Positions 1 to 61,879 of a DNA stretch of 61,969 nucleotides are shown here, in pieces. The stretch is from Peptococcaceae bacterium BRH_c4a (GTDB taxonomy: Bacteria; Bacillota; Desulfotomaculia; Desulfotomaculales; Desulfocucumaceae), in the NCBI GenBank assembly GCA_000961585.1, contig LADN01000074.1, positions 1-61,969 of the forward strand, in the 5' to 3' direction. The translations under genes were made by a program, and so were the position numbers. The notes beneath the pieces are model-generated. The model was given only the letters and a program-made list of their open reading frames with translations, was not told the DNA's origin and searched no databases. Each line of letters begins with the position of its first letter. Position 1 is the first letter of the stretch.

Positions 1-330
1 CCCTCAAGCGACCCCACAGCGACATGCAGTGAGGGGGAGTGATTTAAGTCCGTGCGGAATGTACCGGAGGCTGCTACTGTCTCTTAACGACCGAGCCTAC
101 GAATTTGGAGGTTAGATGTTGGAAGTTGGAAGTCGGATTAAGCTAGAAATAGCTCTGAGGTCATTTCCTACAAGTTTTCTAACCTCTAACCTCTGGCCTC
201 CCACCTCCAAAATGGTCGGCATTCCGTTGGCGACCGAGTTTAGAGACAGTTGCAGCAGGAGGTTATGCAGGCCGGACTTAAATCGCTCCACCTACCCATT
301 AGCGACAATGCAGCGACCCTCAAGTGACCC
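1..330. repeat. Long dispersed hairpin element, copy A
   Basis: The left edge is cut by the window start. The outer arms are an inverted repeat: GTGATTTAAGTCCG near 41-54 faces CGGACTTAAATCGC near 274-287. Inner arms ACTGTCTCT (77-85) and AGAGACAGT face each other, and CGACCGAG occurs in both arms. The loop holds two complementary heptamer arrays: TTGGAAG twice from 119, and CTAACCT twice followed by CTGGCCT and CCCACCT from 179. A tail at about 352-405 is shared with the copy near 21 kb. An open frame across it (116-367) also appears in the copy at 27 kb, but this follows from DNA identity and is not evidence of coding. Confidence 0.85.
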
Positions 331-17484: not shown

Positions 17485-17781
17485 TATTCAAACCTCCCTC
17501 GGGATATTTTTAAATTTAAAATTCACTAATATTATAAATCGTACCATTACTTGCTATGCCCGCCAGCCATTTTTTATCCGGCGGCATACCACCTGGCGTC
17601 AAATAAATCCCTGGCAAGCATACACCCTCCTCCAATACTGATTTAACTCCCACCAAACACCGCAAAACCATGCCACCGGCACCTGATACATTCTAACCTT
17701 AACTTTGACCTTCCTTGACTTTAATTTAATACAAAGCCCTTTTCCTGTCAAGATTAATTTATCTTTTTTTATATGCGACAG

Positions 17782-17810
17782 TGCGACAGGGGACGGTTCT
17801 CGCTGTCGCA
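17782..17810 (+). repeat. REP hairpin, left copy
   Basis: TGCGACAG ... CTGTCGCA encloses GGGACGGTTC and is followed by TTTTTCTTTT. Its reverse complement matches the element at 17998-18026 at 28 of 29 positions, so the two flank the transposase remnant in inverted orientation. Confidence 0.8.
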
Positions 17811-17826
17811 TTTTTCTTTTATATGC

Positions 17827-18030
17827 GACAATAAGTATCGAGAAATAGCGGGCAGACCCAGGAAAGTCTAAAAGGGTGCAGGGATAAGAGTGTTCGCAAT
17901 AGATTGATAAGGGAATTAAAAGAAACAACTGGCATATCTGTACGTGAGCTTTCAAGACTGTTGGGAATAAGTAAGGACATTATTTTCAGAGACTCTGTGC
18001 GACAGCGGGAACCGTCCCCTGTCGCACAGA
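17827..18030 (+). pseudogene. 3' remnant of a REP-associated tyrosine transposase (RAYT)
   Basis: Between the two inverted REP hairpins one frame encodes RLIRELKETTGISVRELSRLLGISKDIIF, which resembles the C-terminal helix-turn-helix seen in Firmicute Y1 (IS200-like) REP-associated transposases. Just upstream, a different frame reads KYREIAGRPRKV, so a frameshift lies between. The catalytic HUH domain is missing. I conclude that this is an internally deleted, non-functional RAYT unit with its REP ends preserved. Confidence 0.6.
17998..18026 (-). repeat. REP hairpin, right copy
   Basis: Inverted copy of the element at 17782-17810, with the same GGGGACGGTTC core on the minus strand. It is followed at 18041-18062 by a second REP-like motif AGAGAGGTGTGTCCC, which recurs in inverse form at 54943. 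Confidence 0.8.
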
Positions 18031-20624: not shown

Positions 20625-20753
20625 AGGTCGCCCGCCTCCCGTTAATATTTTATTTTCTCCATCTACATATTATATCAGACGGCGCAACCCGTTAAAGCTG
20701 TAAGCTGGCAATCAGCTTTCAGCAGTCGGCATCTGTTAAAATCTAAGCGACCT

Positions 20754-21070
20754 CTATGCGACATGCAGTGAGGGGGAGGGGTTTTAGTCCAGGCGGATGC
20801 TGGAATAGTCGTCAGTCGTAGGACTTCAGACGTCGGAATAGTTTCATTTTACCTCTGGTCAAAAGACTTTAAGACCTACGACTGAAGACTGACGACCGAC
20901 GACTGATACAGCCAGTTCAGTCGGAGGATAAGTAGATCGGACTCAAACCCCTCCACCGGCCACAGAGTGACCCAGGAGCGACCCCAGAAAAACTCTGGGC
21001 TACATAAAAATGCTTTGGCGATTTAGCGCTTTAATACTTTAATATGGTATATACTTTCCTTAACGATAAA
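20754..21070. repeat. Long dispersed hairpin element, copy B
   Basis: Outer arms AGGGGTTTTAGTCC (20777-20790) and GGACTCAAACCCCT (20939-20952) face each other. Heptamer arrays form the distal arms: GTCGTCA, GTCGTAG, GACTTCA (20809-20829) against CGACTGA, AGACTGA, CGACCGA, CGACTGA (20879-20906). The left flank carries a short array around TCAGCTTTCAGCAG (20712-20725). The tail from about 21019 (TTTAGCGCTTTAATACTTTAAT) is shared with copy A. Together these fill the 499-bp gap between uvrB and the SLH gene; nothing else is visible there. Confidence 0.85.
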
Positions 21071-21123: not shown

Positions 21124-24072
21124 TTACATCAGCTTGGCCTTTTGCATGGTCTGAAACAAAATCCTGGCTGCCTGGGGCCTGGTAAAATTGTCCTGACCCC
21201 TAAAGGTCTTATCCGGGAAACCTCCGAAATAACCCTTGCTGGCTGCCAGTACATAGGGCTGGGCCCAGACGGCAATACTGGTTCCGGAGTCGTCGTACAT
21301 TTTGATGATGGCCGCTGCCACCTTGGCGTCATCGGTTTCCACGGCCAGACCCACCGCCCTGGCCAAAATAACTGCCACCTCTTCCCTGGTTATATAGTTG
21401 TGATAGTTAAACACCAAATCATTGTTCCTGTCCAGGGAACCGCTGAGAATTCCGTTTCTGGCCATCATGTCCACATATTTATAATCATTCTGGTCTATGG
21501 GCTGCCAGATCCCGTCCGGATCCTTGGCATAGGCCGCAGTACCGGTCATGATCATATCGGCGAAAACATTGTAGGCCGAATAATTCGCCTTGTTGAGACC
21601 CAGCGCCCTGCCCATCATAGCGGCAAATTCTCCCCGGGTGATGGAAATTTCCTGATCCTGGGCGTTCACCAGTCCAAAATTTCCCGGTCCGGCTGTGGCC
21701 AGGGGCTTCATTATTCCCTTGGCCCAAAGGTACTCCACATAGGCCGCGGCCCACCCCTTGGAAGAATAGTCCCTAAAGTTCCACACCTTGTTGACCACCA
21801 CATATTTCCCAAAATAGCCGAAGGGAACAGTGATGGTCTTTTTCTTGGCGTCAACCTTACCCCCCAGATTCTCCTCCCAAACACCGTCATTGTCCGGATC
21901 GCAGAGTACCGTCAGTGTATTGCTGCTGGAGGCGGAAACGTACTTGTCAAAGGTAAGGGTAAGGGTAACCTCACCCTTGTTATTCAGAAGCGCCCCGGCG
22001 GTGACCGGATCAATGCCGACCACCTGACTCACTGAAGGGAAACCGTCCGGCATGGCCATCTGGGTCAGCGTAAAGGTAAGGGACTGGTCGGACAGCACCG
22101 CTCCGGTCGTGGCGTCGTAAAGATACGCCCCCTTGGGGAACACCATGGACAGCTGCTTGTCAAAAAGATCCAACTTCCCCTTTGCTGGAATAACGGCGGT
22201 CACCACGGCCCCCGGCTGCATCAGGTTAAGATAGGTCACCGTAATGACGGTGGTCCTGTTCACCGCCAGGTTGTCTGTAACCACAATGGTAACGGTGTTA
22301 CTCCCGGCTTTAAGGGTAACATTGCTAAAGAACTGGCCGCCTCCGGTGCTGCTGGCCTGAGCCCCGTTTATGGTAACCAGCGAGGCGTCTGCCGAGGTCA
22401 CAGTGATGTTTACCGGATTCTTGTTCACCGTTATGGCATTTCCGGAAACCGCAGCACCGTCCACTGTAACCTGCTGCCCGCTGCCGGTCTCGAAAAACCA
22501 GTCGTCATCCACCGAAGCCGATATGTTCACACCGTCCAAATCCTTGATACCGGTACCCAATATGCCCCGGTAATGGGTGTTGGGCTTTAGGGGGCTTTTA
22601 GGGGTAAAGGTGGCCTTCCTGTTCACGGCATCGTAGGTAACCGTTCCCGCCACAAAAGCCCCGGGGACATCCAGATGGCCTGCGGTCATCTCAATGAGGC
22701 TGAAATTGGTGGCTACCGTATCCGACATAACAGGTCGCCCGAAGGTTACCGATACTGCGCTGTTAACCGATACGTTGGTGGGGTGGCTGCCCGGAACCCG
22801 GTCGGGAATAAAGGTTAAAACACCCAGGATGGTGTCAATGGCGTAAGTAACCGACATCAGAGAACTTTTAACCCCGCCCTTGATGGCCACCGCCCGCAGG
22901 GTGGCATTGGAAGAAATTGTGATGGCTCCCTGATACCGGATCCAGGAACTGCCTGCGCTGTCGTCGGATAACTGGCTGTCGGTGGTGTAATAAATTAACG
23001 ACCCGGAGGTGGTGGTGGTAAGGTTAACTGAAATGGGCTCGTAATATGTGCCACCTACCCTGTCGGGCACCGGCGGGACCACCGTGCCCACGGCAAAGGT
23101 ACTCTGCCCAAGGAATTGCCGGGGATCGTTGTTGTCATAGAGCTTCAACGTCCAGACGCCCTTTTTGGCGCCATCGGCTATTGTATAGGTGGTGTTAAAT
23201 CTGCCGTTGGTCAGCACAGACACGTTTAGAGTGGTATTAACGACACTGTCAGGATCAATAATCAGCACCTGAAGAGCCGGATCCAAAGGATTGGCCGTTA
23301 CTTCCTTGCCGTCCCGGACGAATGTGCCTCTTATCTGTACAATATCCCCGGGCGAAACATTGTCGTAGTACGTCTGATCCGTGGTTACCGAACCGTACGT
23401 GGCATAGGCGCCGTCCATAGTTGTAAAGGTAAATTCGCCGGTGCCCTGGAGGGACTTGCCATTGCTGTCCTTTATATTACTGAGGAACACAGTGTAGGCG
23501 GCCCCGGCATCCAGGGTAACCCCTGATAAAGCTATCGCCAGCGTATTGTCACCGGAGGTGTAGGTGGCGGTGAAATTGGCCGTAGGCACCTCGGCGCTGG
23601 TGGATACCTTCTTGATGGTGATATTGTTTTTATCCTCCAGCAGGGACTTATCCATTTCACGGCTGAACTGGACGATCATGGTGGGATTTACCGCTGAGTT
23701 GGTGGCTCCGTTTGAAGGATAGGTGGACAGTATCTTGGGATTAATGGTATATGAAAAGTCCTTTTGTGTGCTGACACCTCCTTCCGCGGAGGTCACGCTT
23801 AAGATAATATCCTCCTCAACAAGTATAGACGATCCAGCCACATAAGAAGTGTTGGGCACCGTTGCCCGGCCATATACTGAATAGGTTATACTGGCCCCGG
23901 CTTCGGAAGAAAGGACAACGTTCTGGTGCTGGTCAAAGGTACCGGCATCCGGAAGAACCCTTGGAACAACCCCGGAACCCTCAGCACTGTTTAATGCGGT
24001 AAACGGAACGGCCCCCAGGCACAGGCATAATATTAAGAATATTGATGAAACCTTTCGGAAGAAACCCTTCAT
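21124..24072 (-). CDS. S-layer homology (SLH) protein with Ig-like domains
   Basis: A 982-aa exported surface protein. The signal peptide is MKGFFRKVSSIFLILCLCLGAVPF, cleaved near residue 31. Several Ig-like modules follow: two chitobiase C-terminal-like segments (DAGTFDQHQNVVLSSEAGASITYS; PDRVGGTYYEPISVNLTTTTSG) and Big_5-like segments (STYPSNGATNSAVNPTMIVQFSREMD and a second near 430). The C-terminal ~200 residues hold SLH repeats (WAAAYVEYLWAKGIM, ITRGEFAAMMGRALGL, ITREEVAVILARAVGL, FTRPQAARILFQTMQ). SLH domains bind pyruvylated wall polysaccharide, which fits csaB at 57 kb. It could be an S-layer or adhesion protein. The start follows GGGAGG. Confidence 0.93.
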   Translation of the reverse strand: MKGFFRKVSSIFLILCLCLGAVPFTALNSAEGSGVVPRVLPDAGTFDQHQNVVLSSEAGASITYSVYGRATVPNTSYVAGSSILVEEDIILSVTSAEGGVSTQKDFSYTINPKILSTYPSNGATNSAVNPTMIVQFSREMDKSLLEDKNNITIKKVSTSAEVPTANFTATYTSGDNTLAIALSGVTLDAGAAYTVFLSNIKDSNGKSLQGTGEFTFTTMDGAYATYGSVTTDQTYYDNVSPGDIVQIRGTFVRDGKEVTANPLDPALQVLIIDPDSVVNTTLNVSVLTNGRFNTTYTIADGAKKGVWTLKLYDNNDPRQFLGQSTFAVGTVVPPVPDRVGGTYYEPISVNLTTTTSGSLIYYTTDSQLSDDSAGSSWIRYQGAITISSNATLRAVAIKGGVKSSLMSVTYAIDTILGVLTFIPDRVPGSHPTNVSVNSAVSVTFGRPVMSDTVATNFSLIEMTAGHLDVPGAFVAGTVTYDAVNRKATFTPKSPLKPNTHYRGILGTGIKDLDGVNISASVDDDWFFETGSGQQVTVDGAAVSGNAITVNKNPVNITVTSADASLVTINGAQASSTGGGQFFSNVTLKAGSNTVTIVVTDNLAVNRTTVITVTYLNLMQPGAVVTAVIPAKGKLDLFDKQLSMVFPKGAYLYDATTGAVLSDQSLTFTLTQMAMPDGFPSVSQVVGIDPVTAGALLNNKGEVTLTLTFDKYVSASSSNTLTVLCDPDNDGVWEENLGGKVDAKKKTITVPFGYFGKYVVVNKVWNFRDYSSKGWAAAYVEYLWAKGIMKPLATAGPGNFGLVNAQDQEISITRGEFAAMMGRALGLNKANYSAYNVFADMIMTGTAAYAKDPDGIWQPIDQNDYKYVDMMARNGILSGSLDRNNDLVFNYHNYITREEVAVILARAVGLAVETDDAKVAAAIIKMYDDSGTSIAVWAQPYVLAASKGYFGGFPDKTFRGQDNFTRPQAARILFQTMQKAKLM

Positions 24073-24236: not shown

Positions 24237-24314
24237 TAAAGCGACATGCGGTGAGGGGGAGGGGTTTTAGTCCAGGCGGATGCTGGAATAGTCGTCAGTC
24301 GTAGGATTTCAGCA
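24237..24314. repeat. Hairpin element copy C, left arm only
   Basis: Nearly identical to the left arm of copy B (AGGGGTTTTAGTCCAGGCGG, then GTCGTCAGTCGTAGGA). It stops within 10 bp of the stop codon of the lipoprotein gene. The right arm is missing. Confidence 0.85.
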
Positions 24315-24320
24315 TGAGTA

Positions 24321-25769
24321 TTACTGACCGTCCTTACTCTGGTCTCCGCCTTGCTCCTGCTGCCCCCCTTGCTTTCCGCCGCCCACCGATTCTATCTTTT
24401 TAATCTCTCCGTTAATCTCAATTTCCGTGGTTTTACCGTCCTGGGTGGTGATCCGAAGGGTTGTTTTATTATCCTTCTTCTTATTCTGGCCTTCTTTTCC
24501 CTGATCACCGCCGCCGCCCCCCTCTTTGGATCCCTCCTGCCCTTCCTCACTCCCGGAACCTTCACCGGAGCCTCCACTTGAACCTTCACCGGATTTTTCT
24601 TTGGACCCGCCACCCTGACTTTTTTCCTTTTTGCCATTTTTCTTCAGGCTTCCCCACTGCTGTTCCAGCAGGTAAACATTGTCAGACTGGATCAGGCGTA
24701 CCGGTGTGATTCGCGAAGGTACTGAGTAACTGCCGCTCACCGACTGCCCGCCATACTGCCAGCTTCCGTTTTTAGCAAGACCGATGGCGGCGTCAAGGGC
24801 AAACTGTCCCAGGAGGTCCGGCCTGGTATCCACCTCTGCGTCATGTTCTCCGGAGGCCAGGGCCTTGAAGGACTTTTCATCGGCCCCCACACCGGCGGTC
24901 AGGACACGATTGTTAATACCTGCATTCCTGAGCACTTCCACGGCAGCCATGGCCAGGCGGCTGTCTGTGGCCAGCACCGCCTGGATATTATTTCCATTTC
25001 TCATTAATATGTCCTGTAATATAACCTTCACCCGGGAAGGGTCATTTTGCGGCACTGCTTCTTCGGCCAGCAGGCGCACCTCGGCGGATCCCTGCAGGGA
25101 TTCCCTGGCTGCCGAGGCTATTTCCCGGGATGCTGCATCTCCGGGGTCACCGCTCAATAACACCGCCCCCATGGGGATCTTACCCCCCACCTGGGACTCG
25201 GGGGGCATAATTGCTCCGCCTCCCTGGCCCTGATCATTACCATCTTCCTTATCGCCAATTTCATCCAGAGGGTCAGGCGGCACCGGCAGGCCTGCTCCCT
25301 TGCGGGCCGTCCTGATGGCGAACCTGGCCAGAAGCTGCCCGGACAGTGTGTGATTGGAGGCCACATAAGCATCCGCCGGGGCATCCAAAGGCAGGTTTTC
25401 CAGTGCCACTACCTTTATATTTTTTTCCGCCAGTTTGCGCATCAGGCCGGCTCCGGCAGCCGGGCTGGCAAACTGTACCACCACAGCCTTTATCTTCCGG
25501 CTGCCCAACTTCTCAAGCTGCCGTTCCTGACGATCCGGGTCGTTTTTGGCGTCAAGCCAGGTTATCTGCGCATTGTCCCGCTTTTTTCTGCCTTCCATTA
25601 CCTTTTTGATTATTTTATTGCCGTCCCGATCCATATCTGCAAAACTTACCGCTATTTTGACCGGAGGCTCCGGTTTCCTGGCGGCCTTTTTATCGCCACA
25701 ACCAAAGGCTGGTAAAAGAATAATCAACGCAGCAGCCCATATAAGTCGATACAGCGCAGAAACTCTCAT
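24321..25769 (-). CDS. Periplasmic-binding-protein-like lipoprotein with charged low-complexity tail
   Basis: A ~482-aa lipoprotein. The lipobox is LLPAFGC with lipidated Cys24. A sugar-type periplasmic-binding fold follows (KIAVSFADMDRDGNKIIKKV, KAVVVQFASPAAGAG, VVALENLPLDAPADAYVASN, AVLATDSRLAMAAVEVLRNAG). The last ~100 residues are a Gly/Ser/Lys/Glu repeat tail enclosing a small KTTLRITTQDGKTTEIEINGE beta segment. No ABC permease or ATPase is adjacent, so it may be a sensor or orphan binding protein. ATG 25769 behind GGGGGTGA is preferred over GTG 25778. Its stop lies beside truncated repeat copy C. Confidence 0.82.
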   Translation of the reverse strand: MRVSALYRLIWAAALIILLPAFGCGDKKAARKPEPPVKIAVSFADMDRDGNKIIKKVMEGRKKRDNAQITWLDAKNDPDRQERQLEKLGSRKIKAVVVQFASPAAGAGLMRKLAEKNIKVVALENLPLDAPADAYVASNHTLSGQLLARFAIRTARKGAGLPVPPDPLDEIGDKEDGNDQGQGGGAIMPPESQVGGKIPMGAVLLSGDPGDAASREIASAARESLQGSAEVRLLAEEAVPQNDPSRVKVILQDILMRNGNNIQAVLATDSRLAMAAVEVLRNAGINNRVLTAGVGADEKSFKALASGEHDAEVDTRPDLLGQFALDAAIGLAKNGSWQYGGQSVSGSYSVPSRITPVRLIQSDNVYLLEQQWGSLKKNGKKEKSQGGGSKEKSGEGSSGGSGEGSGSEEGQEGSKEGGGGGDQGKEGQNKKKDNKTTLRITTQDGKTTEIEINGEIKKIESVGGGKQGGQQEQGGDQSKDGQ

Positions 25770-25974
25770 TTCAGTCACCCCCGGTAATTATGTTAATTTC
25801 TATTATGCATAATTGTAGTCGCAAATATTTCTTAAAGAAGGCCGCAACAAACAAAAAAACGCAGCAAACAGGCATAGATGCCAACTGTTTCCTGCCACTT
25901 TTTTGCGCTCTGAATCACCAATCACCCTTCTAATATCACTTCTTAAAGCATAGAAATTACTTGAGGTGGTAAAT

Positions 25975-26965: not shown

Positions 26966-27282
26966 CTAAGCGACCCCACAGCGACCTGCAGTGAGGGGGA
27001 GTGATTTAAGTCCGTGCGGAATGTACCGGAGGCTGCTACTGTCTCTTAACGACCGAGCCTACGAATTTGGAGGTTAGATGTTGGAAGTTGGAAGTCGGAT
27101 TAAGCTAGAAATGGCTCTGAGGTCATTTCCTACAAGTTTTCTAACCTCTAACCTCTGGCCTCCCACCTCCAAAATGGTCGGCATTCCGTTGGCGACCGAG
27201 TCTAGAGACAGTTGCAGCAGGAGGTTATGCAGGCCGGACTTAAATCGCTCCACCTACCCATTAGCGACCATGTAGCGACCCA
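26966..27282. repeat. Long dispersed hairpin element, copy D
   Basis: Almost identical to copy A across about 280 bp, including the heptamer-containing loop (TTGGAAG x2 at 27081-27094, CTAACCT units on the other arm). It occupies most of the 529-bp gap between the glycosylase and cooT. The shared open reading frame across A and D shows no ribosome site and is a by-product of repeat identity. Confidence 0.9.
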
Positions 27283-30127: not shown

Positions 30128-30179
30128 TGAACGGCAACCTCCTCTGACAATAACTCATACTGATGACTTTATTCGGTCG

Positions 30180-30306
30180 GGAGTCAGGAGTCAGAATATG
30201 GACGGTATTCCTTACAAGAATTCTCAAAGACGCAAATAAGGAACGTGATGCCCCTGGCGGCATGGGTCTAAATTCTGAGTTCTGAGTTCTGAGTTCTGTA
30301 TTCTTA
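30180..30306. repeat. Paired opposite heptamer arrays between ftsX and envC
   Basis: GGAGTCA x2 at 30180-30193 is followed by an opposed array ATTCTGA, GTTCTGA, GTTCTGA, GTTCTGT, ATTCTTA (30272-30306). The left flank TCATACTGATGACTTTATTC recurs at 37881 beside another opposed pair. Confidence 0.85.
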
Positions 30307-30319
30307 GCCAACCGGTTGA

Positions 30320-37856: not shown

Positions 37857-37909
37857 TCAAATCACCCCATTATTAATATCTCATACTGAAGACTTTATTC
37901 TGTCGGAAT

Positions 37910-38074
37910 CCAGAACCCAGAATTCAGAATCCAGAATGCGTAAGCGTTCGTTATAGGCAAATAGAATCAACTGTCCTTTTATTCTTGATGGTGCCACTTG
38001 CCACTGGCGCATGGTAAGTTATGTGGGTCTTTATTCTGGATTCTGGATTCTGGATTCTGACTCCTGGCTTCTGT
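37910..38074. repeat. Opposed heptamer arrays between secA and prfB
   Basis: CCAGAAC, CCAGAAT, TCAGAAT, CCAGAAT (37910-37937) faces the complementary ATTCTGG x3, ATTCTGA, CTCCTGG, CTTCTGT (38033-38074), forming a potential large hairpin 4 bp from the secA stop. Confidence 0.92.
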
Positions 38075-44573: not shown

Positions 44574-44954
44574 TAAAAAAACGCCCTGAAGGGCGCTTGA
44601 GAATCCAGAAGCCAGAATCCAGAATCCAGAATTGTGACAGCCTGCCTTAAAAGCGACCCTCAAGAGACCCCACAGCGACATGCAGTGAGGGGGAGGGGTT
44701 TTAGTCCAGGCGGATGTTCCGGAGGCTGTTATCTGGCTCTTGGCGACAGAGCCGTACGGACTGCCGAACCGGCTGCAGGACGCAGCCGGTAGCCGGAATC
44801 GACGCATGGACGCGGCGTTGGAGGCGGTCGGCAGTCCGTTAGGCGACGAGCTTAGAGCCAGTTCAGCCGGAGGATAAGTAGATCGGACTCAAACCCCTCC
44901 ACCGGCCACAGAGTGACCCAGGAGCGACCCTAAAGAGACCCCACAGCGACATGC
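44574..44954. repeat. Long dispersed hairpin element, copy E, with terminator and heptamers
   Basis: From left to right: an A-tract/CGCCCTGAAGGGCG hairpin (44574-44595); heptamers CAGAAGC, CAGAATC, CAGAATC, CAGAATT (44606-44633); then the hairpin from 44651. Stems differ from copies A/D/F by compensating changes (CTGGCTCT/AGAGCCAG in place of CTGTCTCT/AGAGACAG; GGACTGCC/GGCAGTCC in place of GGAATGCC/GGCATTCC). The loop contains CCGGCTGC AGGAC GCAGCCGG. A direct repeat of GACCCTMAAGAGACCCC flanks both ends (44655 and 44926). No gene is seen in 44504-45051. Confidence 0.88.
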
Positions 44955-45051
44955 TGATAATTGACCATTAACTGGCCCAATTAAGCAAGCAAATAAGGAA
45001 TGCATTGGCCAACTCCTGTCTCCTGTCTCCTGTATTCTGACGGGGTTCACC

Positions 45052-61533: not shown

Positions 61534-61820
61534 AAAACGCCCTGACGGGCGTTGCCGTCTTGCAGACGGCGGAATACAGAAGCCAGAAGCCAGGAGCCAG
61601 AATAGTGACAGCATACCTTAAAATCGACCCTCAAGAGACCCCACAGCGACATGCAGTGAGGGGGAGTGATTTTTGGTTCTGGGCGGAATTTACCGGAGGC
61701 TGCTACTGTCTCTTAACGACCGAGCCTACGGAATGCCGAGCCGGCTGCAGGACGCAGCCGGAAGCCGGAATCGACGCAAGGACGCGGCGTTGGAGGCGGT
61801 CGGCATTCCGTTGGCGACCG
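61534..61820. repeat. Long dispersed hairpin element, copy F (right arm disrupted)
   Basis: Order: A-tract/CGCCCTGACGGGCG hairpin, CAGAAGC x2, CAGGAGC, CAGAATA (61577-61604), then the element from about 61620. The loop CCGGCTGC AGGAC GCAGCCGG and CGACGC ... GCGTTG is shared with copy E, whereas the outer stem sequence matches A and D. After GCGACCGAGTTTAG (to 61827) the right arm is replaced by unrelated sequence. Confidence 0.85.
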
Positions 61821-61879
61821 AGTTTAGGAGAGTGTTGCAAAACTATATTAAGAGGTCAACAAAGTACTTATTCGACTAC

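Follow-up and report, generated by a model that had tools for sequence, protein, structure and literature searches.

The window (the whole stretch of DNA analysed, 61,969 nucleotides of contig LADN01000074.1 from Peptococcaceae bacterium BRH_c4a) holds six copies, A to F, of a long hairpin repeat. The feature under study, first noticed in a sequence-only reading of this DNA, lies within copy B, in a composite insertion that has the uvrB promoter on one side and, on the other, the terminator of the minus-strand gene upstream (21124-24072). The hairpins and the heptamer arrays associated with them are as follows.

26-293, plus strand: copy A, a hairpin on scaffold 2, capped by heptamer tip A (insert 102-213)
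20688-21069, plus strand: composite insertion around copy B, ends approximate
20765-20957, plus strand: copy B, a long hairpin with scaffold 1 stem GGGGGAGGGGTTTTAGTCC / GGACTCAAACCCCTCCACC and heptamer tip B
20804-20909, plus strand: heptamer-armed insert B, with left arm at about 20808-20838, a central mini-hairpin, and right arm at 20871-20906
24248-24312, plus strand: copy C, a B-type copy, left half only
26988-27255, plus strand: copy D, a hairpin on scaffold 2, capped by heptamer tip A (insert 27064-27175, its arms at 27066-27101 and 27140-27170)
30178-30307, no strand assigned: free heptamer-armed hairpin with GGAGTCA / TTCTGAG arms
37903-38073, no strand assigned: free heptamer-armed hairpin with GAATCCA arms, outside any TwoAYGGAY scaffold
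44596-44639, plus strand: heptamer array GAATCCA/GAAGCCA, left flank of copy E
44682-44904, plus strand: copy E, a scaffold 1 hairpin with a TwoAYGGAY double-hairpin tip (44769-44789 and 44800-44817)
45008-45042: heptamer array on the opposite strand, right of copy E
61653-61836, plus strand: copy F, a scaffold 2 hairpin with a TwoAYGGAY tip (61741-61761 and 61772-61789), right end cut

Folding gives one long stem whose tip differs between copies (z = -4.9 for B, -7.0 for D and -8.4 for E, relative to dinucleotide shuffles). The tip of E and F consists of CCGGCTGCAGGACGCAGCCGG and a second small hairpin. The sequence-only reading had assigned heptamer arms to copies B, A and D, and a GC-rich pair of hairpins to E and F, and the three tip types were found where it had placed them. 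The long hairpin is bounded by terminal inverted arms, GGGGGAGGGG..CCCCTCCACC, which may or may not be the ends of a mobile unit. In copy C, similarity to the repeat stops beside the 3' end of the minus-strand open reading frame at 24321-25778. The window also contains, at 17781-18027, a separate inverted repeat (GTGCGACAGGGGACGGTTC..), the arms of which lie 187 nt apart and are 97% complementary.

An array detector returned 19 arrays of period 7 in the window against none in five dinucleotide shuffles, while each of the other periods from 4 to 15 gave none or one, the multiple 14 excepted. Among the arrays of this period are the two arms of each of A and D, as well as the right-hand arm of B. 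Both arms of A are heptameric (lag-7 identity 0.72 and 0.69), and the right arm of B is clearly so (0.76 over 36 nt, with other lags at 0.41 or less); the left arm of B is weakly heptameric (0.52 versus 0.42). Most of these palindromes share a common plan, in which two inverted 7-mer arrays flank a central mini-hairpin, the latter having the form GGAATTxxC..GxxAATTCC in A and ATTTGACC..GGTCAAAT in B. The unit that has moved is a palindrome of ~100-110 bp inclusive of its own central mini-hairpin, and the exchangeable 7-bp cassettes first envisaged are not supported. In the folded arms a mismatch spacing of 7 is in excess (17% versus 3.5% in shuffles), and spacings of 3 and 4 are also frequent, for which reason a strict rule of six base pairs plus one mismatch was dropped. 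When 14 B-type palindromes were aligned with MAFFT, RNAalifold recovered no more than six consensus pairs, because the number of units varies and the arms slip in register. Comparing each array with its own inverted partner and with other arrays does not discriminate between them, because heptads are too alike from locus to locus and because most arrays stand more than 260 nt away, as flanks of composites.

In the 3.49 Mb genome the left end of the long hairpin repeat was matched 189 times, and the reversed control pattern not once; the true copy number is probably higher, since many copies sit at contig ends. The tips were catalogued in 106 distinct full copies, where the E-type double hairpin accounts for 61, tip A for 33 and tip B for nine, the remaining three being lost or fused. 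The stem occurs in the form of two covarying scaffolds, scaffold 1 (GGGGTTTTAGTCC) and scaffold 2 (TGATTTAAGTCCG), which differ by compensatory changes (GGAATGCCGA/TCGGCATTCC versus GGACTGCCGA/TCGGCAGTCC). Scaffolds and tips are combined as follows.

Scaffold 2 with tip E: 35 copies, plus 2 with a small deletion
Scaffold 1 with tip E: 24 copies
Scaffold 2 with tip A: 25 copies, plus 2 variants, plus L085 (missed by the tip pattern and assigned to A by eye)
Scaffold 1 with tip A: 4 copies
Scaffold 1 with tip B: 9 copies
Recombinant L122: 1 copy, with left arm of scaffold 1, tip A, and right arm of scaffold 2
Deleted or fused tip: 3 copies (L022, L114 and L145)

The proposal that the same scaffold carries different self-complementary tips is borne out by this catalogue, and the further copies do not share one uniform loop. 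In about 40% of the full copies the double hairpin, with its GGA loops, is absent and a heptamer palindrome stands in its place. There are only two heptamer tip types, each near clonal (mean insert identity within type 95% for A and 98% for B), and their junctions are fixed. On scaffold 1, tip A stands exactly between CCGGCT and GGTCGGCAGTCC, where E copies have both small hairpins; on scaffold 2 its left junction lies 16 nt further out, which is consistent with a later deletion. Tip B substitutes for a longer stretch of the stem than does tip A. The tip region of one copy, L120, is duplicated in tandem (GCCGAGCCTACGGAATGCCGAGCCGGCTGCAGGACGC), so tips change by local duplication too.

Copies of the long hairpin are embedded in a mosaic. 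Each is preceded by 11-mer units (AGCGACCCTCA and its variants) and followed by further 11-mers; ahead of the first units come, in this order, a GC hairpin, a hairpin of GCCGTCTTGCAGACGGC, an array of the heptamers GAATCCA, GAAGCCA and GGAGCCA, and a linker, and the far end of the mosaic is AT-rich and contains octamer-like units (CTTTAATG). The degenerate 11-bp units (AGCGACCCTCA, AGCGACCCCAC), seen on both sides of the hairpin at 20749-20765 and 20958-20990 of the window and in the flanks of most copies, constitute a third repeat system with a period of its own. In two congeneric genomes, G001 and G002, the intergenic region at uvrB is short and lacks the composite, and at this one locus the empty site supports the view that the composite is, or has been, mobile. 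Two properties that define a MITE are accordingly present in the repeat: ~189 near-identical non-coding copies with terminal inverted repeats, and an empty orthologous site, seen at the uvrB locus only. No target-site duplication was recognised by eye at the flanks of copies, and, in a limited search, no dedicated transposase or recombinase was identified for either palindrome family. Y1 transposases (PF01797) are scarce: this genome has two matches, one of them fragmentary, and on a check of these transposases alone no engine of the REP/RAYT type is therefore apparent. The orientation of genes near the copies is mixed: in a small sample, 12 of 32 copies lie downstream of a gene on the same strand, and a rule placing the composite in 3' untranslated regions was dropped for this reason.

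Copy E matches the TwoAYGGAY RNA model (RF01731) at 44717-44875 with 48 bits, above the gathering cut-off of 43 bits. There are 115 such matches in the genome, 98 of them above the cut-off, and none in 14 control genomes. Only E-type copies belong to RF01731, as the A and B copies are without the double hairpin; E bears two terminal hairpins with GGA-containing loops, GCAGGACGC and GCATGGACGC. In 15 elements from the order, 91% of the cells in the stem are paired and 30 of 36 pairs have changed on both sides, the covariation score being 0.619 against 0.216 in shuffles (none of 500 shuffles as high) and at most 0.112 in slid alignments, and the motif CA(N)GGA is near invariant in both loops. 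TwoAYGGAY is present as 10 to at least 38 matches per genome in other families of the order (G013, G016 and G017), with unrelated outer stems, and in G016 the matches mostly comprise the double hairpin alone. At one locus of the present genome (L170, C91:67089-68130) three RF01731 matches on one strand lie exactly 442 bp apart, which suggests that the whole composite has been triplicated in tandem.

Weinberg et al. (2010, PMC2864571) listed TwoAYGGAY as a probable genuine RNA, and its binding by CsrA was proposed in 2014 (PMC4333381). A csrA gene is present in this genome (C87:696-851), which, together with the GGA loops, provides what sequestration of CsrA would need, although this coincidence in the sequence is a necessary and not a sufficient indication. 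Among the 41 genomes searched for both, CsrA was found in all 11 with TwoAYGGAY, compared with 27 of 41 overall (hypergeometric P = 0.004, a value that ignores phylogeny and stricter TwoAYGGAY filters). It could be argued from this association, from the near-invariant loops and covarying stems, and from the fact that the CsrA hypothesis is already published, that hairpins and tips are mainly regulatory RNA, TwoAYGGAY titrating CsrA and the heptamer tips being a functional second class selected in place, for example as stabilisers of 3' ends. We regard this as unlikely: the ~190 near-identical copies and the empty uvrB site in congeners indicate a mobile repeat, the orientation of neighbouring genes is mixed in the small sample of 32, and some 40% of the full copies have no GGA loops. 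The hairpins may act as RNA, may act as DNA cruciforms, or may have no function.

Heptamer-armed palindromes also exist outside the scaffold. A scaffold-free copy of insert B, 96% identical, is found at C63:107128-107235, and the genome has more divergent B-type palindromes at many further sites, among them sites on C54, C91, C87 and C58. Homologues of A and B with 70-75% identity, extending over the arms and the central hairpin, are present in other genomes of the family (G001, G003, G005 and G007), those of insert A in G005 and G003. The link between the two repeat systems that had been suggested from the window is thereby substantiated, the tips being related to free heptamer-armed hairpins in this genome and in relatives. 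A profile of the B type (model R1) matches all eight family genomes and, among 32 others from the order, 14, although outside the family these are mostly a sequence-profile result, and those inspected are mostly heptamer-armed hairpins that need not be of the same lineage. The free palindromes lie just past stop codons, between tRNA genes and in the 16S-23S spacer, and many are not in hairpin loops; the spacer and tRNA sites include L382 (G037), L389 (G027), L315 (G003), L326 (G001) and L384 (G013). We propose a family of heptamer-armed palindromes, defined by a conserved central mini-hairpin, by 7-mer arrays inverted about it, and by occurrence outside the scaffold. No description of such a family in this order was found in the open-access literature, and it appears to be undescribed so far.

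Heptamer tips are seen on hairpins of related genomes as well. In G005, which is of another genus, TwoAYGGAY-type hairpins are capped immediately after GGCCGCAGGA by A-like palindromes (L314 and L324), and B-like palindromes lie lower in the stem of such a hairpin (L339 and L345); in G002 a B-like palindrome caps the scaffold (L338). The tips in G002 and G005 may be either independent captures or an inheritance from a common ancestor. The rpsB-tsf transcription terminator, a hairpin unrelated to TwoAYGGAY, has a heptamer palindrome between its arms in four of seven genomes of the family (the present genome, G000, with G001, G004 and G007) and a short tip in G002, G003 and G005. The loci concerned are L366 (on C71 of the present genome), L364, L365, L367, L368, L369 and L395. 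As G000, G001 and G002 represent one genus, and G005 and G007 another, both states of the tip occur within each of two genera, and the tip state has therefore changed at least twice. In the rpsB terminator of the present genome the heptads of one arm look locally homogenised (e.g. CTTGCGA CTTGCGG CTTGCGG).

The explanation that we favour, and hold to be probable, is that a TwoAYGGAY hairpin was amplified, and that its heptamer tips are rare captured palindromes which spread together with the scaffold. TwoAYGGAY palindromes would have multiplied to ~190 copies, forming the core of an intergenic mosaic that resembles a MITE, while the heptamer arms would derive from a second, independent family of ~100-bp palindromes dispersed intergenically across this bacterial order. 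At least twice in the lineage a heptamer palindrome would have taken over the tip of TwoAYGGAY, with removal of both GGA loops: tip A in the region of the small hairpins, tip B further down the stem. Each chimera would then have been copied with its scaffold, and recombination would have carried tip A between scaffolds 1 and 2. That there are only two heptamer tips, each near clonal, is the reason for preferring rare captures, amplified with the scaffold, over active swapping.

It had initially been supposed that the arms are swappable, and a mechanism of this kind would make the scaffold a receptacle, with heptamer cassettes exchanged by recombination or transposition aimed at hairpin loops. 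One scaffold does show differing tips; the unrelated rpsB terminator has alternative tips, with both states within each of two genera; and another genus, too, has A-like and B-like tips in its TwoAYGGAY-type hairpins. Nothing in the 106 full copies points to site-specific exchange, however, the genome having only two heptamer tips, near clonal and with fixed junctions, while many free palindromes lie outside hairpin loops, at the stop-codon, tRNA and 16S-23S sites given above, and neither a recombinase nor a target duplication was found; we judge active exchange to be rather improbable. Replication slippage in 7-nt steps that lengthened the TwoAYGGAY stem in place, with no incoming element, is already disfavoured and in our estimate very improbable, since the inserts share sequence, including the central mini-hairpin, with scaffold-free elements and with other genera, and substitute for scaffold sequence instead of extending it, even though heptads are very common in the genome and locally homogenised in the rpsB terminator arm, and polymerase slippage has been proposed as the cause of over-representation of heptameric repeats (PMC4692102).

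Under the favoured scheme of rare capture and joint amplification, the composite would move as a MITE with transposase supplied in trans, 7-nt replication slippage would maintain the heptads of the arms, and the loss of the GGA loops would turn a putative CsrA-binding hairpin into one consisting of stem only. A broader idea, which we offer tentatively, is that hairpin tips are a preferred landing place for mobile heptamer palindromes, in terminators as in TwoAYGGAY, and that such nesting makes hairpins grow, switching off binding by the loop and keeping the stem.

Two families of intergenic palindromes are here nested, and in some 40% of the full copies the loops of one, putative sites of protein binding, have given way to the other. 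This amounts to a natural experiment, in which the same long stem occurs with and without GGA loops across a single genome, and which offers a way to test the titration of CsrA by TwoAYGGAY, a published prediction that apparently is untested. The rpsB terminator provides an orthologous site at which gain and loss of a tip can be dated, and degenerate heptamer arrays, usually taken as simple repeats, gain a structural context as the arms of hairpins.

TwoAYGGAY RNAs, mosaic intergenic palindromes and bacterial heptamer repeats are each already known; no description was found in the open-access literature of TwoAYGGAY as a repeat of ~190 copies, or as nested with a heptamer palindrome. The E-type tips and stems resemble RF01731 in scoring above gathering, in their two small GGA-loop hairpins, and in their long covarying stem, but differ in number, with 115 model matches and ~190 scaffold copies in one genome, in their setting within mosaic composites, and in having the double hairpin replaced by a heptamer palindrome in ~40% of full copies. 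High-copy intergenic palindromes with mosaic structure and presence or absence among relatives are also characteristic of REP/BIME, REPIN and MITE elements (PMC2817692, PMC3116915), although the present stem-loop is far longer (~190-285 nt), has flanking 7-mer and 11-mer arrays and nested tip palindromes, and has neither a RAYT link nor a REP head motif established. The nearest precedent for inverted heptamer pairs is provided by the paired heptanucleotide sites of Geobacter metallireducens (class 3, MTYCTGA; PMC2700814), short degenerate 7-mer arrays on opposite strands whose heptad resembles the ATTCTGG/ATTCTGA arrays found here; those 16 sequences were, however, reported as putative regulator binding sites, and not as hairpins with a conserved centre or as tips on hairpins. 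Heptamer repeats described elsewhere, TAACTGA in Beggiatoaceae (PMC4679880), and GGGAATC in Xanthomonas and GGGGA(C/T)T in Nostoc (PMC4692102), likewise form intergenic arrays of a 7-nt unit, but they are mostly direct repeats of one fixed unit, whereas the arrays of the present genome use many units, are arranged as inverted arms, and enclose a central mini-hairpin.
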